Position numbers and translations under genes: made by a program
Source of the DNA: Thiomicrorhabdus xiamenensis
GTDB taxonomy: Bacteria > Pseudomonadota > Gammaproteobacteria > Thiomicrospirales > Thiomicrospiraceae
NCBI RefSeq assembly: GCF_013282625.1
Contig: NZ_CP054020.1
Location: 2,356,001 to 2,420,000 of the forward strand
Reading direction: 5' to 3'
Length of the DNA: 64,000 nt
The notes under the pieces: model-generated
Seen by the model: only the letters and a program-made list of their open reading frames with translations
Database searches by the model: none
Told to the model about the DNA's origin: nothing
Shown here: piece after piece, positions 1 to 32,952 of the stretch
Layout: every line of letters starts with the position of its first letter
Position numbering within the stretch: position 1 is the first letter of the stretch

Positions 1-1
1 G

Positions 2-400
2 TTCATTAAGATCATGCTGGTGGCGATCGTCCTTATCAGCGTAATGAACGTGATGATTATGGCAGTTTATGAACGTGTCCGCGAAATCGGAACCCTTGCG
101 GCAATGGGCACCCAGCCGGGAACCATCCTCAAACTGTTCATTACCGAAGGGCTATTGCTCGGTATCGCCGGCGCTTTGATCGGCGTATTGATCAGTGCGC
201 TGGTGATTTTCGGCCTGCAACAGGCGGAACTGAGCTTCTCCTTCGGCCGCCAGAGCGGTTTGATTCTCGATCCGCAACTGGCGCTCAAAGACGTCCTTTT
301 CGCCTCGCTAATCGTCATCGCCGCCGCCGTAATCGCCAGTTTGCAGCCGGCGTGGAAAGCATCCAAATTGAACCCGGTCGACGCTTTGCGTCAAGTTTAA
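2..400 (+). CDS. ABC transporter permease, FtsX/MacB family, C-terminal part (5' truncated by window)
   Basis: The reading frame is already open at base 2, so only the last ~132 residues are present. Two or three hydrophobic segments are visible, one near the start, one in the middle and one just before the end. The cytoplasmic segment after the first reads YERVREIGTLAAMG, the hallmark of the FtsX-like permease domain shared by LolC/LolE and MacB. The protein ends KLNPVDALRQV, also typical of this family. Such permeases pair with an ATPase and usually move lipids or lipoproteins out of the inner membrane. The next gene is a LolA-like periplasmic protein 19 bases downstream, which supports an envelope-trafficking operon. 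The exact substrate cannot be read from sequence. Confidence 0.9.
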   Translation, partial: FIKIMLVAIVLISVMNVMIMAVYERVREIGTLAAMGTQPGTILKLFITEGLLLGIAGALIGVLISALVIFGLQQAELSFSFGRQSGLILDPQLALKDVLFASLIVIAAAVIASLQPAWKASKLNPVDALRQV

Positions 401-419
401 CCCGCACGGAGTCCTACTG

Positions 420-1169
420 ATGAAATCTTTGCTCGTCCCGTTTTTCCTGCTCATAAGCAGTTTAAACTTAATTTCCGCTCAGGCGCAGGATGCAACTGCG
501 GCTAATGCCCTGCTGCTGGAAGTCGACCAGCGCTTACAGCCGCAAAGCTACGAAATGTATCGCAAGCTGATCAATATCGAGCCGAACGGCAAGCAGAAAT
601 CCTTTGTGCTCTACACGGTCAAAAAGGGCAAGGATAAAATGCTGGCGCTGTTTCTCGACCCGGCCAGCGAGCGTGGACGTTCCAGTCTGCGTATCGGCGA
701 GAATATGTGGCTATACATCCCCAATGTCGGCAAGCCGTTGCGTATCACCAGCCTGCAATCGGTGGTCGGCGGCGTTTTCAATAACTCCGATATCCTGCAA
801 CTTGACTACAGCGTCGAATACGACGCCACGGAAATGCTCGAAGAAGCACAGCACTACCTGCTGACACTGAAAGCGAAAAGCCGCAGCGTTGCCTATGACC
901 AGCTGAAAATGTGGGTCGACAAGGAATACAAAACACCACTAAAAATCGAAGCCTATTCGGCCAGCGGCATGCTCATCAAAACACTGCACTACAGCAAAAT
1001 CAAAGACTTCGGCAACGGCTATATCCGTCCGGCCATGCTGGAAACCGACAGTCCTCTGTACAAAGGCTACAAATCGGTCATGCTGTTCGACGGCATTCAA
1101 CCGCGCGAGTTCAATGACGAGGTTTTCTCGCTGAACTATATGAACAAGGTCGGCGAGCTTAGAGAATGA
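420..1169 (+). CDS. Outer membrane lipoprotein-sorting protein, LolA-like
   Basis: 249 residues with a Sec signal peptide at about 1-23 (hydrophobic core LLVPFFLLISSLNLIS, cleavage near AQA). The mature part has the alternating beta-strand pattern of the LolA/LolB-like fold, and GENMWLYIPNVGKPLRI is typical of the large 'outer membrane lipoprotein-sorting protein' family that sits beside FtsX permeases. It probably binds an acyl chain or lipoprotein in the periplasm and works with the upstream permease. It overlaps the next gene by four bases (ATGA), indicating translational coupling. It is not canonical LolA, and its cargo is unknown. Confidence 0.85.
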   Translation: MKSLLVPFFLLISSLNLISAQAQDATAANALLLEVDQRLQPQSYEMYRKLINIEPNGKQKSFVLYTVKKGKDKMLALFLDPASERGRSSLRIGENMWLYIPNVGKPLRITSLQSVVGGVFNNSDILQLDYSVEYDATEMLEEAQHYLLTLKAKSRSVAYDQLKMWVDKEYKTPLKIEAYSASGMLIKTLHYSKIKDFGNGYIRPAMLETDSPLYKGYKSVMLFDGIQPREFNDEVFSLNYMNKVGELRE

Positions 1170-2422
1170 GGTTTTCACTTGCACTGCTGATCGCCCTGAC
1201 GGCATTCAACAGTCAGGCGGAAGACTTCAGTTTCGACCTGCAGGCTTATCAGAAGAAGCCGTATGAGTTTTTCGGTCATGCCGACCTGACCGCAACGCAT
1301 CTTCAAGTTGACGAGAACGCCGCTCTTAGCCGTTTAAGCTTTCGCGATCAAACTCCCGAAGACTTGCAACGTTACTACGGAGAACTGGAACTGAACGGCC
1401 TGTACCGTTTCGATAACAGCCTAATCAGCTTCCGCGGCTTAGGAAGCTATCAGCACGATACTTTACAAACGCTGAGCAATCGCACCATTCAGGAATTGTA
1501 CTGGCAGCTTCAACCGACAACCTCATGGCAGTTCGACATAGGTAAAAAAGCGGTCAAATGGGGCAAAGGCTATGCATGGAACCCGGTCGGTTTTATCGAG
1601 CGCCCTAAAAACCCCGACGACCCTGAAGTAAACCGAGAAGGTTATGTCATGCTCGGTTCGGAGTGGACACATAGCCTCAACGGCCCAATCCGTAATATCA
1701 GTGGTGGCCTGTACGCGTTACCGAGAAGTGAAGCCGTCAACAGCGACCTGACCGACAGCGATACGCTTTTAATGGCGGCCAAGCTTTCGCTGCTGATCGA
1801 TATGACCGATCTCGACTTTTATCTGAGCCGTTCTTCAACCAACAAGAATGCCTTGGGCGTCAGTTTTGCCAGCAACCTTAGCAGCAACCTTGAAGTACAC
1901 GGAGACTTCGCCTGGCGCGAAGCCGTTGAACGCCCTCTTCTGGTGGACAACGTCATACAAAACCAAAGGGATGCCCAATTCCAGAGTCTGATCGGCTTAC
2001 GTTATCTGGACAGCCGAGAAATCACCTGGATTCTGGAATGGCTGCATCAGCCGCAAGCTTATAGCACCGATGAAATGCGCACCTTCTATCAACTGGCCTC
2101 CAGCGAAGACCTAAACGATCTGCAACTGGCGCAGCAAGCGAGAACGGCCGGTTACGGCCTCAGCAATGTCGGGCGCAACAGTTTGTACCTGCGCGCCAGC
2201 CTCAAAGACTGGTGGGACATAGTGTACCTCAACGCCGCGCTCACGCTTTTCTACAACCCGGAGGATCACAGCAGCGCCGTGACTCCGGAATGGGTTTACA
2301 CCCCTTTGAAAAATCATGAATTGCGGTTCAGAGCCGGTTTTCTGCAAGGAAGTCGTTGGAGCGAATACGGTGAAAAACTGAGTGACCGTAAAATCGAATT
2401 ACGCTGGCGCTGGTATTTTTAG
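1166..2422 (+). CDS. Outer-membrane beta-barrel protein of the same operon, function unknown
   Basis: 418 residues with a short signal peptide (about 1-18, ending SQA). It is rich in alternating amphipathic strands (for example QELYWQLQPTTSWQFDIGKK and ITWILEWLHQ) and ends in an aromatic residue (RWRWYF), the usual C-terminal BAM signal of a beta-barrel. The ATGA overlap with the LolA-like gene shows co-translation. By position it could be the outer-membrane partner of the permease/LolA-like pair. I do not recognise a specific porin or transporter family, so function is inferred from context only. Confidence 0.75.
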   Translation: MRFSLALLIALTAFNSQAEDFSFDLQAYQKKPYEFFGHADLTATHLQVDENAALSRLSFRDQTPEDLQRYYGELELNGLYRFDNSLISFRGLGSYQHDTLQTLSNRTIQELYWQLQPTTSWQFDIGKKAVKWGKGYAWNPVGFIERPKNPDDPEVNREGYVMLGSEWTHSLNGPIRNISGGLYALPRSEAVNSDLTDSDTLLMAAKLSLLIDMTDLDFYLSRSSTNKNALGVSFASNLSSNLEVHGDFAWREAVERPLLVDNVIQNQRDAQFQSLIGLRYLDSREITWILEWLHQPQAYSTDEMRTFYQLASSEDLNDLQLAQQARTAGYGLSNVGRNSLYLRASLKDWWDIVYLNAALTLFYNPEDHSSAVTPEWVYTPLKNHELRFRAGFLQGSRWSEYGEKLSDRKIELRWRWYF

Positions 2423-2433
2423 ACAGTACGGTT

Positions 2434-2766
2434 TTAGTGCCCGGAGCTTCTCGAAAAGAGATTAATCACCATCACACCGGCGAGAATCAAAGCGATGCCC
2501 AGCATCGCCGCCGGATCCAGTTTCTGATCGTACAGCCACCAGCCGATCACGGCAATCAGGACAATCCCCAGCCCTGCCCAGACTGCGTAGGCAATCCCGA
2601 GCGGAATCTGTTTCAGACTCAGCGAAAGGAAATAGAAGGCGATTGCATAACCGATGACAACCACTAGCGTAGGCCCTAAACGGGTAAAGCCGTCACTGGC
2701 TTTCAGTGCCGAAGTGGCAAAAACTTCCGCCACCGTCGCCAAAGCCAAAAAAAGCCAGTATTTCAT
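2434..2766 (-). CDS. Small multidrug resistance (SMR) family transporter
   Basis: 110 residues forming four transmembrane helices. The conserved membrane Glu lies in the first helix ([17 protein letters not shown]) and the second-third region has [12 protein letters not shown], both SMR hallmarks (EmrE/QacE/SugE type). The family exchanges protons for cationic compounds as a dimer. EmrE-like and guanidinium-exporting (Gdx/SugE) subtypes are hard to separate by eye; the motif favours the EmrE/QacE side. Its stop lies 11 bases from the stop of the convergent beta-barrel gene, leaving no room for a separate terminator. It is encoded just downstream of the antiporter gene on the same strand. Confidence 0.9.
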
Positions 2767-2798: not shown

Positions 2799-4472
2799 TC
2801 AGATCTCGATATCGATCGGCTTACGGCTGTGAAAAGCGGTCTCGAGCTTATCATAGAGCATCTCCAGCGTATCGCCGGTGGCATATTCGGCCACGGCAAT
2901 ATGCAAATCCCCCAAACGATCCTTAAGCTTATGGGCAAAGATGGTCGCAGCATCAATATCCGAGTAAGTGGCCAAAATGGCGTACCGCTGAGGACCAAGT
3001 TTGCCGAAATAATCCGACTTCCTCAAAAAGGGCAGCACTTTATGTTTAATCAGTTTGACGTCCTCGGTCTCAAACGCCAAAAGTGCAAACGGTTCCAGAT
3101 GGCGTTGCGAGCGCGCCATCTCCTTTTCGACCAGCTCCTCGAATACCAGGGCATTATAAGCCTGCGTCTTACTGTCTTTCTGCAGAATTTTCTTCAATTG
3201 CTCTTTAGCTTCCTGGTCAGAATAGTGATGCCGGTCGTCCGCTTTGTCGAGTGCGAAACCGGCCGCATAATATTTCAGAAAGGGAACCAACAAGCCGGTA
3301 TAGACGAACATCGAGAGCATCACTACCCCGAGAACGATCGCCATAAAAGCCTCCCGATAGATAAAATCTTCGGGCAGAGCAAAGACCATAATCACTGCCA
3401 GCCCGCCTTTCATTCCGGCCAGCGTCAATGCGCCGGACCAGCGAAAAGGATGTTTCTTCCACCAGATCAGCGGCGAAATCATCAAAAAGCGAATCAATGT
3501 CGTCAAAACAAAGACCAGCAGAATTTCCAGATGATATTTCCACAGCAGCTGCAAATCGACCACACTGGCAATAGCGACAAAAATCACCCCGTTGGCAAAG
3601 AAGCCGAGATAGTGCGCCTCTTTTCGATAGGCGCGGAAATTGACCTCGGAAGCACTTTCGCTGTTCAGAAAACCATACAACGACGAAGCATCCAACTTTT
3701 TATAGTGACCTTCCTTGTCGAACAGATATTTGAACAACAGAATGGTGACCACAACGCCCATAATCCCGGAGACCCCCTGATGCTCGCTGACCAGAAACGC
3801 CATACTGGCCATGATATACAGCGAAAGGAACTGTTCGACACTGTCGGAGAAAAACTTGAACGCATAATAGCCCATCAAGCCGACCGCCAGCCCGATCAGC
3901 ACCGACTCAAACAGCATCTTGCCGAAATTCAGTGTGAACTGTGAAAAAGCGAAATCATGGCCCGATATCAACGGCAATGCGACAAAGAAGAAGATCATCA
4001 TCGCAGTAATATCGTTGAACAGACTCTCTCCCTCGGCATACAGCTTGAGTTTTACCGGCAGCTTGAAATGTCCGAAAATCGAAGTCACCGAAACGACGTC
4101 GGTCGCCATTAAAGGGGCGAATAGCGCCAGCAGAACGCCGACCGCAAAATAATATTCCGGCAGCACCAGATAGGTGATGCCGATCGCCATTGCGATCGAA
4201 AGAATGACCGCAATCAGCGACAGATAGGTAATGGCCACCAGATTGTTTTTCAATTCACTGCGCGACACTCCCAGAACGTCAGGAATCAGAATAATCGGCA
4301 GCATCAGATAGACGATTTCGGGGAAAAAGTCGCCAAACGTCTGAAGATCGAAGACAAAATTGGCCAGATAGGCTAAAAAAATCGAGCTTAAGGCAAAGGG
4401 AACCCTGAAACGCTCTTCAAAAAAGCGTGCCAGCAGCACCACTGAAAGAATCAGGGTAAATAACAGCAGCAT
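2799..4472 (-). CDS. Na+/H+ (cation:proton) antiporter, CPA1 type, with C-terminal degenerate GGDEF-like domain
   Basis: 557 residues. Residues ~1-395 contain about a dozen hydrophobic segments with the CPA signatures ATDVVSVT (~123-130, putative ion-binding Asp125) and EGESLFND (~147-154). They form the inner-membrane exchanger. Residues ~425-550 are soluble and follow the layout of a diguanylate cyclase domain: [15 protein letters not shown] matches the DxLTxLxNR start, and [10 protein letters not shown] (493-497 = GPQRY) sits where RyGGDEFaiL would be. The catalytic residues are missing, so cyclase activity is not expected. The domain may be a regulatory module. The exchanger call is firm; the GGDEF relation is my reading of the pattern and needs a profile search. 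The SMR gene follows 32 bases downstream. Confidence 0.88.
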
Positions 4473-4523: not shown

Positions 4524-5774
4524 TTAAACCCGATTTTCGTTGCGAATCAATTGAGAGATATTATGAATCCGCGTCTTTTCGATCTGTTCGGCAATCTCTT
4601 TACCTTGATACCCTTGCGCGATAATCGCCTGATTATCGACTTGCGAAGCCGCTGCCAACACTTCCAGCCAGAAGGCCTTCTGCGGATAAGGCGTCTCCTC
4701 AAAACCCAAACGTCCGCGCGCATCCGCCATACAGGCGATAAGGATTTTCTCGAAGCTTTCCGCGTCTTTATAGGCGCCGCAGTTCTGCAAAACCTTATGA
4801 TAGGTTTTCGGTTTCAGGTAAGGTTTAGCGTCCTTGTCCAGCCCGTTATGAATCAGACCGTGGTATTCGGTTACCTTAAGCGCAAACTGTTCGATCTTTT
4901 TCGGCACGCGATAACGTTGGCATAACGCCTTAACCAGCGGGATACCGGCCGCCTCATGACCGTGATGTTTCGGCCACAGCTCTTTTGGCGTGATCCCTTT
5001 ACCGAGATCATGTACCAGGGCGGCAAAACGCACCGACAGATCACCGCTTAACCGGCACGCCGCTTCCAGCACCATCATAGTATGAATCCAGACATCCCCT
5101 TCCGGGTGATGTTTCTCCGGCTGTGTCACGCCGTGCAGCGCATTCAGTTCCGGAAAAAGCACCTCGGTGGCTCCGACAGCGTCGAGTACCTCGAAAAAAC
5201 GGCTTGGCTGCGGCGAATTCAAGACCTTAACCACTTCCTGCCAGACACGCTCCGGCGTCAATTCGGCTAATTCGCCGCTGGCGGTCATGGCACTCATAAG
5301 CTCTCGAGTCTCCTCGGCCAGTTCAAAGCCGAAAGGCGCCAATTTCGCGGCAAAACGCGCCACTCTCAATACTCGCAAAGGATCTTCGCTGAAAGCCGGA
5401 GAGACATGACGCAGAACCCGCGCCTGAAGGTCCTTCTGTCCGCCGTAAGGATCGATAATCGCGCCATCCTCACTGCGAGCCATAGCATTAATCGTCAGAT
5501 CGCGGCGGATCAGATCATCCTCTAACGTCACCGAAGGATCGGCAAACACCTCAAAGCCGTGATAACCGCTGCCCTGCTTACGCTCAGTACGCGCCAGTGC
5601 ATATTCTTCATGCGTTTGCGGATGCAGAAAAACCGGAAAATCCTTTCCGACCTGTTCAAAGCCTTTACCAAGCATCGCCTCTGGCGTCGCTCCGACGACG
5701 ACCCAGTCACGATCATAAACCTCTATCCCCAATAGCGCATCACGGACCGCGCCGCCGACCAGATAAACCTGCAT
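4524..5774 (-). CDS. cca: Multifunctional CCA protein: tRNA nucleotidyltransferase with HD domain
   Basis: 416 residues. The N-terminus [14 protein letters not shown] is the nucleotide-binding signature of class II CCA-adding enzymes. YDRDWV supplies the catalytic acidic pair and [10 protein letters not shown] the second conserved block. The middle (~110-220) is the helical neck/body with [10 protein letters not shown]. The C-terminal half has an HD phosphohydrolase domain ([11 protein letters not shown]), so this is the long gammaproteobacterial form that also has phosphatase/phosphodiesterase activities. It adds or repairs the 3' CCA of tRNAs. The start was set at 5774 (MQVYLVGG) because it matches the family N-terminus; an upstream ATG at 5786 is in frame but has no better ribosome site. 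Confidence 0.93.
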
Positions 5775-5809
5775 CCCTAAACCCATCTAAAAACGGTGCT
5801 GAAAAATAA

Positions 5810-31545: not shown

Positions 31546-32952
31546 TCAAGCAAATTTATAACGGTTTTTTCCAGCCTGTTTCGCAGCATACATTGCCTGA
31601 TCGGCAAGCTTAAGAAGCGTCTCCGGATCCGACGCATTAAGCGGATAAAGCGCCACTCCGAGACTGCAAGACAACTTGATCGTGTGTGCATTCAGCTCAA
31701 TCTCGCTTTCCATCTCCAGCAAAACCCGTTGCAGATACGGTTTAAGCTGCTCTTTATCTTCGAGATCTTCAATTACCGAAATAAACTCATCCCCGCCCTG
31801 ACGGACAACCGCATTTTCACGCCGTGTAATATTCCGTAAACGCTCAGCCAGAATCTTCAGCACAATATCGCCCGAATCATGTCCATACAGATCATTAACG
31901 TCTTTAAATCCATCCAGGTCGATAAAGCAAACGGCAACCAATTTATCATGCCGCCATGCTCGCGCCAGCGCTTCGAGAATTTTCTGTTTCATGGCGTTAC
32001 GGTTGAACAGACCGGTCAAGGGATCATACAACGCCATCTGTGAAAGCAGACGCTCGCTCGCCCTTCTCTCTTCAAAGAGCACGCCGAGAATCAGCGCCAG
32101 AAGAATTAAAGAAAGCACAAAATAATTCAGTTCGATCAACTGCTCAAAGCTACCTTCTTTAAAAGGACCGAAGCCCTGATATGTCTGATACAAAATAGTC
32201 ACGGTCAGCACATTTACGGCAAACCCGGACAGAGCAACGCCTTTCTTAGCGGCAATCAGAATGACCAAAGGCGTCATCAGGGCCATTATCAATACAAAAT
32301 TGGACGCAATTTCATAACGGGTAAACAGGTAAGTCGTAACCGCGAAAAAAATCCCGATCGCCGCCAACTCAATCCTTTTATGCCGAACTCTTCCCGAACT
32401 GAAGGCGAGCAGCATGGGCACAAGCAGGATTTGCCCCATGGCATTCCCGAACCACCAGGACAACCAACTTACCGGATAACTTTCCCAGAACAAAAGCCCA
32501 CTGGAAACTAAAGAGAGCGTTCCGAGCGTAGCGCTAAAAGGTTGCAAGATAAAAAGAATCAACAGCAGAATACCGCCCAGATCACGCATGGTTTCCATTT
32601 TTCGATTAAGCTTCAGTAACTGAAACAGAGTAATCCCAATCCAGGCTTCTAGGGTATTGATAATCGAAACAGCAAGACTGGTTTCCAGAAGCAGGCCGTT
32701 ATGCCAGGCGAGCGCCAGTTGGCCGAAGAAAATTCCTGGGAGAATGCGCTTACCGAAAATCAAAGCGCCGGCCAGAGCAAATCCTTCGGCCGCAAAAATG
32801 ACAATCGTAATAATACTGTGCTCGTATGAGAACGCAAAACTGAGCTTGCCGGAAACGAAATAGGTCACCGCCATCAACAGGTTTAAAGTCAGAAAACTGT
32901 AAACCGACTTATCATCCTTGTCAGTGATCAGGCCTTGAAATCCTTTTAACAC
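31546..32952 (-). CDS. Diguanylate cyclase with MASE1 membrane sensor domain
   Basis: 468 residues from a GTG start (32952; GGAG nine bases upstream). Residues ~15-300 hold eight or more hydrophobic segments of a MASE1-type sensor. The GGDEF domain (~305-468) starts MALYDPLTGLFNRNAM. The active site is VRQGGDEFISVIE and metal binding is CFIDLDGFKDVND, so it should be active. At the I-site position before GGDEF the sequence is RREN instead of RxxD, so product inhibition may be absent. It makes c-di-GMP at the inner membrane. The signal sensed is unknown. The Lap-like secretion locus 9 kb away is a plausible c-di-GMP output. Confidence 0.9.
   Translation of the reverse strand: MLKGFQGLITDKDDKSVYSFLTLNLLMAVTYFVSGKLSFAFSYEHSIITIVIFAAEGFALAGALIFGKRILPGIFFGQLALAWHNGLLLETSLAVSIINTLEAWIGITLFQLLKLNRKMETMRDLGGILLLILFILQPFSATLGTLSLVSSGLLFWESYPVSWLSWWFGNAMGQILLVPMLLAFSSGRVRHKRIELAAIGIFFAVTTYLFTRYEIASNFVLIMALMTPLVILIAAKKGVALSGFAVNVLTVTILYQTYQGFGPFKEGSFEQLIELNYFVLSLILLALILGVLFEERRASERLLSQMALYDPLTGLFNRNAMKQKILEALARAWRHDKLVAVCFIDLDGFKDVNDLYGHDSGDIVLKILAERLRNITRRENAVVRQGGDEFISVIEDLEDKEQLKPYLQRVLLEMESEIELNAHTIKLSCSLGVALYPLNASDPETLLKLADQAMYAAKQAGKNRYKFA

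Follow-up and report, generated by a model that had tools for sequence, protein, structure and literature searches.

A divergent cation/proton exchanger with a degenerate GGDEF tail in Thiomicrorhabdus xiamenensis, and c-di-GMP as its putative ligand

Results

Identification of an exchanger gene with a GGDEF-like tail

In the window, that is, the whole stretch of 64,000 nucleotides of T. xiamenensis DNA analyzed here, one gene encodes a divergent cation/proton exchanger whose C-terminal tail is almost certainly a degenerate GGDEF domain. We consider it possible, at somewhat less than an even chance, that this dead domain has been kept as a regulator of the exchanger, with c-di-GMP as the favored, putative ligand. 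A sequence-only reading of the same DNA had proposed an antiporter with a degenerate GGDEF-like C-terminal domain, and sequence comparison and a predicted structure bear out both the fold and the absence of the catalytic residues. The gene and its two parts are located as follows:

2799..4472, minus strand: the whole gene (557 aa), running from its ATG at 4472 to the last base of its stop codon at 2799; it encodes the divergent cation/proton exchanger together with its degenerate GGDEF tail
3258..4472, minus strand: membrane exchanger domain, residues 1-405 (PF00999)
2802..3257, minus strand: C-terminal tail, residues 406-557, comprising the FALDKA junction, a linker helix and a GGDEF-like fold (from alignments, profiles and the predicted model)

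The open reading frame at 2799-4472 was confirmed as real; it encodes 557 residues on the minus strand, which had previously been left unstated. It is one of three PF00999 places in the genome, a single contig of 2.59 Mb. PF00999 covers residues 12-400 with 94.8 bits (E 6.4e-27) against a gathering score of 26.2, and the protein is thus a member of this family. With the TIGR00831 (a_cpa1) model it reached 68 bits, far from the equivalog cut-off of 279.6, so the exchanger is divergent, related to the CPA1 equivalog without being a member of it. Among solved structures, the closest in sequence carry the names "Sodium/hydrogen exchanger 7" (E 1.1e-7) and OsSOS1 (E 0.0014). The residue pair N153-D154, which we take to be a mark of CPA1 exchangers, is invariant across the seven fused proteins of one alignment. 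Judging from these sequence features, the protein probably exchanges Na+ or K+ for protons. Relatives align over residues 1-557 with 59-98% identity, among them the proteins of Thiomicrorhabdus sp. 6S3-12 (98% identical) and Thiomicrorhabdus marina (75%); in all, ten fused proteins were collected.

The tail has the GGDEF fold

Scanned singly with PF00990, the window protein scored 12.4 bits as a whole, 17.9 bits over residues 415-557 and 17.6 bits over residues 406-557, below the gathering cut-off of 23.8, and automatic annotation could therefore miss the GGDEF tail. Homology to GGDEF domains is detectable all the same, and the fold is predicted. Both PF00990 and TIGR00254 were found at E≤1 in all ten fused tails, with best E values of 1.3e-15 and 4.3e-13, and four of the five other fused proteins scanned whole passed the PF00990 cut-off, the fifth (L009) falling short with 22.4 bits. 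An HMM trained on the genome's own GGDEF domains, 27 in number, gave the window tail 29.2 bits; the match comes in two collinear pieces and passes over the substrate loop. Of 2000 shuffled tails, 1762 returned a score, none above 8.0 bits, and the reversed tail gave 2.0. The sequence-only reading had named a GGDEF-profile comparison and a structure prediction among its checks. In the first, hhalign aligned eight tails (six after the program's own filter) to the 27 domains with a probability of 99.1% and a score of 112 over 131 columns; the proposed length of about 130 residues for the GGDEF-like course is right. The 30 column-shuffled controls stayed at or below 3.7% probability and a score of 20.5. 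A chance resemblance was ruled out by these two sets of controls. Searched against PDB sequences at E≤1, a profile of the ten tails had 45 matches, the best at 9.2e-17; we take almost all of them to be GGDEF proteins by entry name or by recognition; the clear exceptions were 4ysk (E 0.26) and 9ksg (E 0.45).

A match to TrkA-C, USP or another known antiporter tail had been named as the outcome that would speak against a GGDEF tail, and such models are absent from the Pfam and NCBIfam lists of the window tail at E≤10; TrkA_N, TrkA_C and Usp models gave no match in either library at that threshold, and a tail of the TrkA-C/USP kind was ruled out on this basis. At E≤10, and with HMMER filters discarding most weak matches, these libraries returned only diguanylate cyclase/phosphodiesterase models and DUF5733. 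The same Pfam library does detect TrkA_N (90.5 bits) and TrkA_C (22.0 bits, below its cut-off of 27) on another exchanger of this genome. DUF5733 gave a weak match to the linker and first helix (E 0.033 on the whole protein, 0.058 on residues 415-557, 0.0052 on residues 406-557) and appeared in two of the ten tails; seven further Pfam families, each in a single tail of the ten with best E values of 0.016 to 0.12, were taken as chance.

For the second check, an AlphaFold model of the tail was built from an alignment of three orthologous tails, without GGDEF paralogues. One of the five models was confident (pLDDT 80.7; the others 55.4, 47.0, 46.5 and 39.4), and it resembles GGDEF structures with Z up to 18.7: the best 50 Foldseek rows had E values of 4e-9 to 4.4e-6 and the 50 listed VIA-align entries had Z of 18.7 to 15.2, all of them presumably GGDEF-domain proteins, by title or by recognition. 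The full-length model (pLDDT 40) was useless for contacts between tail and membrane part. After the last membrane segment come FALDKA, invariant in eight of the ten tails, and a predicted helix.

The active site is lost and a putative I-site is retained

The positions on which a reading of the tail's function turns are these:

2982..2996, minus strand: GPQRY, residues 493-497, opposite GG(D/E)EF when aligned with the genome's own GGDEF domains
3012..3023, minus strand: RKSD, residues 484-487, RxxD I-site motif (spacing rule given in the excerpted text of PMC2170427)
2928..2930, minus strand: K515, candidate third I-site residue, 28 positions beyond D487 and unchanged in 8 of 10 tails

As the sequence-only reading had it, GPQRY replaces GGDEF: the alignment places residues 493-497 opposite GG(D/E)EF, and within this stretch R496 alone is invariant in all ten tails. 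Compared with the domains of its own genome, the window tail has also lost by deletion the stretch that holds ND..GH..GD, is shortened where these domains have S.G, and lacks the final AK..GRN. It thus has neither the GG(D/E)EF motif nor the substrate-binding loop of a diguanylate cyclase, and an active cyclase was ruled out, the active site being absent; with the loop deleted, GPQRY in place and AK..GRN missing, what is established about these residues excludes catalysis. An acidic residue persists at E468 (E in nine tails, D in one), in the column which we take to be the first metal-ligand position of the GGDEF active site.

R484 and D487 stand nine and six residues before the glycine of GPQRY. 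This is the canonical -9/-6 spacing of the cyclase I-site RxxD from the GGDEF position, according to the excerpted text of PMC2170427. An RxxD of this kind, as in degenerate-GGDEF receptors of the PelD/PopA type, is present in the window tail and in eight of the ten tails. K515 follows the F/Y of GGDEF/GPQRY by 18 residues and presumably has a counterpart in the I-site of PleD; at its position the genome's own GGDEF domains have K or R in 11 of 27 cases, and those with GGEEF in 8 of 13. All three residues are invariant in the eight tails, where 49 of 152 positions are invariant and 103 vary; by chance, three given positions would all be invariant with a probability of about 3%, with the reservation that they were picked after being seen.

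Two more distant fused proteins (from genomes G223 and G427) have SxxD, with serine for the I-site arginine, so the I-site is not retained throughout the fused clade. The automatic alignment puts another arginine in the I-site column of both, and its "invariant R79" is misleading for them. In both, the tail retains a longer part of the domain. The more distant fused exchangers, whose GGDEF remnant lies over the Pfam cut-off, are located as follows:

L036 208-2058, plus strand: distant fused exchanger
L068 1501-3360, minus strand: distant fused exchanger

Their tails carry AENRA or ATNRA for GGDEF and SxxD for RxxD. Among the GGDEF domains of the T. xiamenensis genome itself, RxxD occurs in 19 of 27 and the arginine is missing in 6 of 27 (27 of 34 matches, 30 of which were fetched as loci, a recognizable GGDEF motif being required). 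The arginine is therefore not needed for the fold. The frequency of the motif also means that RxxD in the tail may be inherited baggage, and its aspartate may be structural; inheritance accounts for where the motif came from but does not explain why it outlived the active site.

Distribution and selection

Of the 62 genomes searched in the order, 7 have a match over all 557 residues, a patchy distribution made up of 3 of 32 genomes of the same genus (the T. xiamenensis genome included), 4 of 11 of a second genus and 0 of 19 of the other five genera. Wider searches scored at most three candidates per genome and left out four frames of more than 500 aa (in genomes G524, G574, G615 and G645). In the class sample of 369 genomes, four matched at E≤1e-20 (T. 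xiamenensis, G043, G206 and G223); two of the five genomes in the order of G223 match (G223 and G427), and the order of G206 contains no genome besides it. In the phylum sample of 398 genomes, 63 matched at E≤1e-30, and the whole tail was covered only in T. xiamenensis: in the other 62, no best match extends past residue 429, and a further place in genome G611, which has a cyclic-nucleotide-binding tail, stops at residue 448. Twenty-nine of these phylum matches were placed in a tree and have 11-29 residues beyond the aligned part. A plasmid search returned 21 records, none with a single place covering 80% of the query; the matches of the 20 records listed lie mainly in the exchanger part.

In a quick tree of 47 exchanger domains, the ten fused proteins lie on one side of a branch with SH-aLRT support of 95, which is consistent with a single fusion event behind the clade; the tree holds 47 of 49 rows (L104 and L105 were dropped for lack of a match), L037 sits on a very long branch, and a warning that long branches meet was issued by the program. 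When the window protein is compared with its nearest relative, the tail has a dN/dS of 0.023 and the membrane part one of 0.025; for a second pair (L007/L008) the corresponding values are 0.080 and 0.032, dS in the tail being saturated against more distant relatives. These values indicate that the tail is kept by purifying selection, somewhat less tightly than the membrane part, and on them a pseudogene tail was ruled out. Identity to the T. marina-type protein (genome G029) is 66% in the tail and 78% in the membrane part. None of the ten fused proteins has a stop codon inside its open frame.

Gene neighborhood and c-di-GMP setting

The exchanger gene is flanked by two genes of the same direction:

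4524..5786, minus strand: cca-type tRNA nucleotidyltransferase gene, upstream and co-directional, 51 bp away
2434..2766, minus strand: small multidrug resistance (SMR) family transporter gene, downstream and co-directional, 32 bp away

The shared direction and short gaps make one transcript of the three genes possible. Both neighbors occur in the window and at the loci of strain 6S3-12 (L003) and of G029 (L102). At a distant fused locus (L036), the gene after the exchanger matches LPG_synthase_TM.

Above cut-off, GGDEF is matched 34 times and EAL 15 times in the genome, which implies extensive c-di-GMP signaling. One further GGDEF domain lies in the window itself, at 31561-32034 on the minus strand (G000:C1:2387561-2388034), in a frame of 486 aa; it scores 157.4 bits, with GGDEF intact and RREN for RxxD. 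In two genomes that are close relatives of each other, a PAS-GGDEF-EAL gene lies upstream of the fused exchanger:

L100 2415-4328, minus strand: PAS-GGDEF-EAL gene (genome G011)
L101 6063-8867, minus strand: PAS-GGDEF-EAL gene (genome G012)

This gene lies 40-50 bp upstream on the same strand, with GGDEF and EAL motifs intact, and the G011 copy has 638 aa against 935, apparently cut by the contig end. It is a candidate for a cotranscribed regulator of the exchanger, judging from position and motifs; it was seen in these two close relatives only and is absent beside the window gene. In G006, a gene with two receiver domains and GGDEF (by domain scan) is the second one downstream, with a single convergent gene in between, and a gene that looks similar occupies the same place in G009. 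Next to the fused genes of G206, G223 and G427, in fetched stretches that were partly short, no GGDEF gene was identified. With so many GGDEF and EAL genes per genome, such neighborhoods are suggestive only.

Discussion

The sequence-only reading had suggested that a nucleotide such as c-di-GMP controls the exchanger allosterically, and allosteric control by c-di-GMP is also what we infer. It gains support from the retained RxxD I-site, a point absent from that reading, and is weakened by the loss of the arginine in two of the ten fused relatives and by the base rate of RxxD in the genome. In the mechanism we propose by analogy with GGDEF-type receptors, c-di-GMP would bind the tail at the retained I-site, R484 and D487, probably together with K515. 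Exchangers of this kind form dimers. Bound c-di-GMP might cross-link the two tails of such a dimer and so alter their packing, and the signal would then pass through the FALDKA junction and the helix after the last membrane segment, shifting transport; that coupling and its direction are conjectural. As the ligand of the tail, c-di-GMP is a tentative assignment. The fuller proposal, an exchanger family whose dead GGDEF tails have a working I-site through which c-di-GMP itself gates transport, is more doubtful still, though it stays within reach.

The alternative to be taken most seriously is that the tail needs no ligand and is a module of GGDEF fold that serves to keep the exchanger dimer assembled or to dock a partner, for instance a GGDEF/EAL protein, RxxD being inherited and structural. 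We rate its chances as appreciable, if below even, and nearly as likely as c-di-GMP binding; the two roles are not mutually exclusive. The high frequency of RxxD among the recognizable GGDEF domains of the genome fits such a module, as do G223 and G427, which retain the tail without the I-site arginine, and the GGDEF-EAL protein encoded upstream in G011 and G012 is a possible partner. It accounts less well for an arginine and a K515 that stay invariant in eight tails varying at 103 of 152 positions, the more so since six of the genome's own GGDEF domains do without the arginine and the fold does not need it.

Sensing of another nucleotide (GTP, ppGpp or c-di-AMP) through the remains of the active site appears very improbable: the acidic first metal-ligand position is kept at E468, but the other A-site elements are missing from the window tail. 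The ND/GH/GD loop and AK..GRN are gone, and GPQRY, with its invariant R496, has none of the acidic residues of GGDEF. Slighter still is the chance that the tail is a decaying, nonfunctional remnant. Its faster evolution, in identity to the G029 protein and in the dN/dS of the L007/L008 pair, points that way, but the tail dN/dS is far below 1 in both pairs and the ten frames are free of internal stops.

Both a transporter with a GGDEF-matching C-terminal part and GGDEF-type receptors without an active site are known already. The former is an ammonium transporter (PDB 8qj3, 8qj4 and 8qpf), likewise a membrane transporter, whose C-terminal residues 458-623 match residues 17-146 of the tail profile (E 7e-7). 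It differs in being named as another transporter, known here by its entry names, and it presumably belongs to an unrelated family and has an intact cyclase domain. No paper on an ammonium transporter with a GGDEF domain was among the matches listed in our literature search. An exchanger-GGDEF fusion was likewise not described in the titles and abstract openings of the matches listed in this full-text search, whose scope leaves out most subscription journals.

Regulatory tails of other folds also occur on exchangers: SLC9C1, SOS1 and CpaA carry TrkA (RCK) or cyclic-nucleotide-binding tails. These differ from the window protein in their regulatory fold and presumably in their ligand. In the same genome, the exchanger L104 combines PF00999 with TrkA_N and a weak TrkA_C and resembles the window gene in joining an exchanger to a ligand-sensing kind of cytoplasmic domain. 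We also observed, in a genome of the phylum (L107, on contig 24 of G611, 1-2535, minus strand), a PF00999 exchanger with a C-terminal cNMP_binding domain (PF00027, 70 bits), a layout that presumably resembles sperm NHE/SOS1-type exchangers.

The targets of known c-di-GMP receptors are for the most part transcription, motility, polysaccharide synthesis and the cell cycle. Among these receptors, PelD and PopA are like the window tail in domain type, with RxxD and without a GGDEF catalytic site, according to excerpts of PMC2170427 and PMC12564702; the latter excerpt gives PopA an RxxD with a degenerate A-site. They differ in their partners, Pel polysaccharide and the cell cycle rather than a transporter, and in that c-di-GMP binding has been demonstrated for them and is predicted here. 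In PelD, R367A, D370A and R402A each abolish c-di-GMP binding (KD 1 μM; excerpt of PMC2170427). The third I-site residue needed there is thus an arginine, and the lysine K515 at that place in the window tail counts against the c-di-GMP reading. BcsE is another GGDEF-type receptor without an active site, as described in the excerpted PMC7439463, and a salt response of Halomonas involves a cyclase without a canonical I-site, not an exchanger, in the excerpt of PMC12421958. In the main text of a 2025 review of c-di-GMP effectors (PMC12564702), the words "transporter", "antiporter" and "ion channel" do not occur.

The small tail and its three residues R484, D487 and K515 make for a sharp prediction. 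A direct link between c-di-GMP and the exchanger, if true, would tie this messenger to pH and salt balance: the signal of surface attachment would then also set the cytoplasmic pH or cation content without a change in gene expression.
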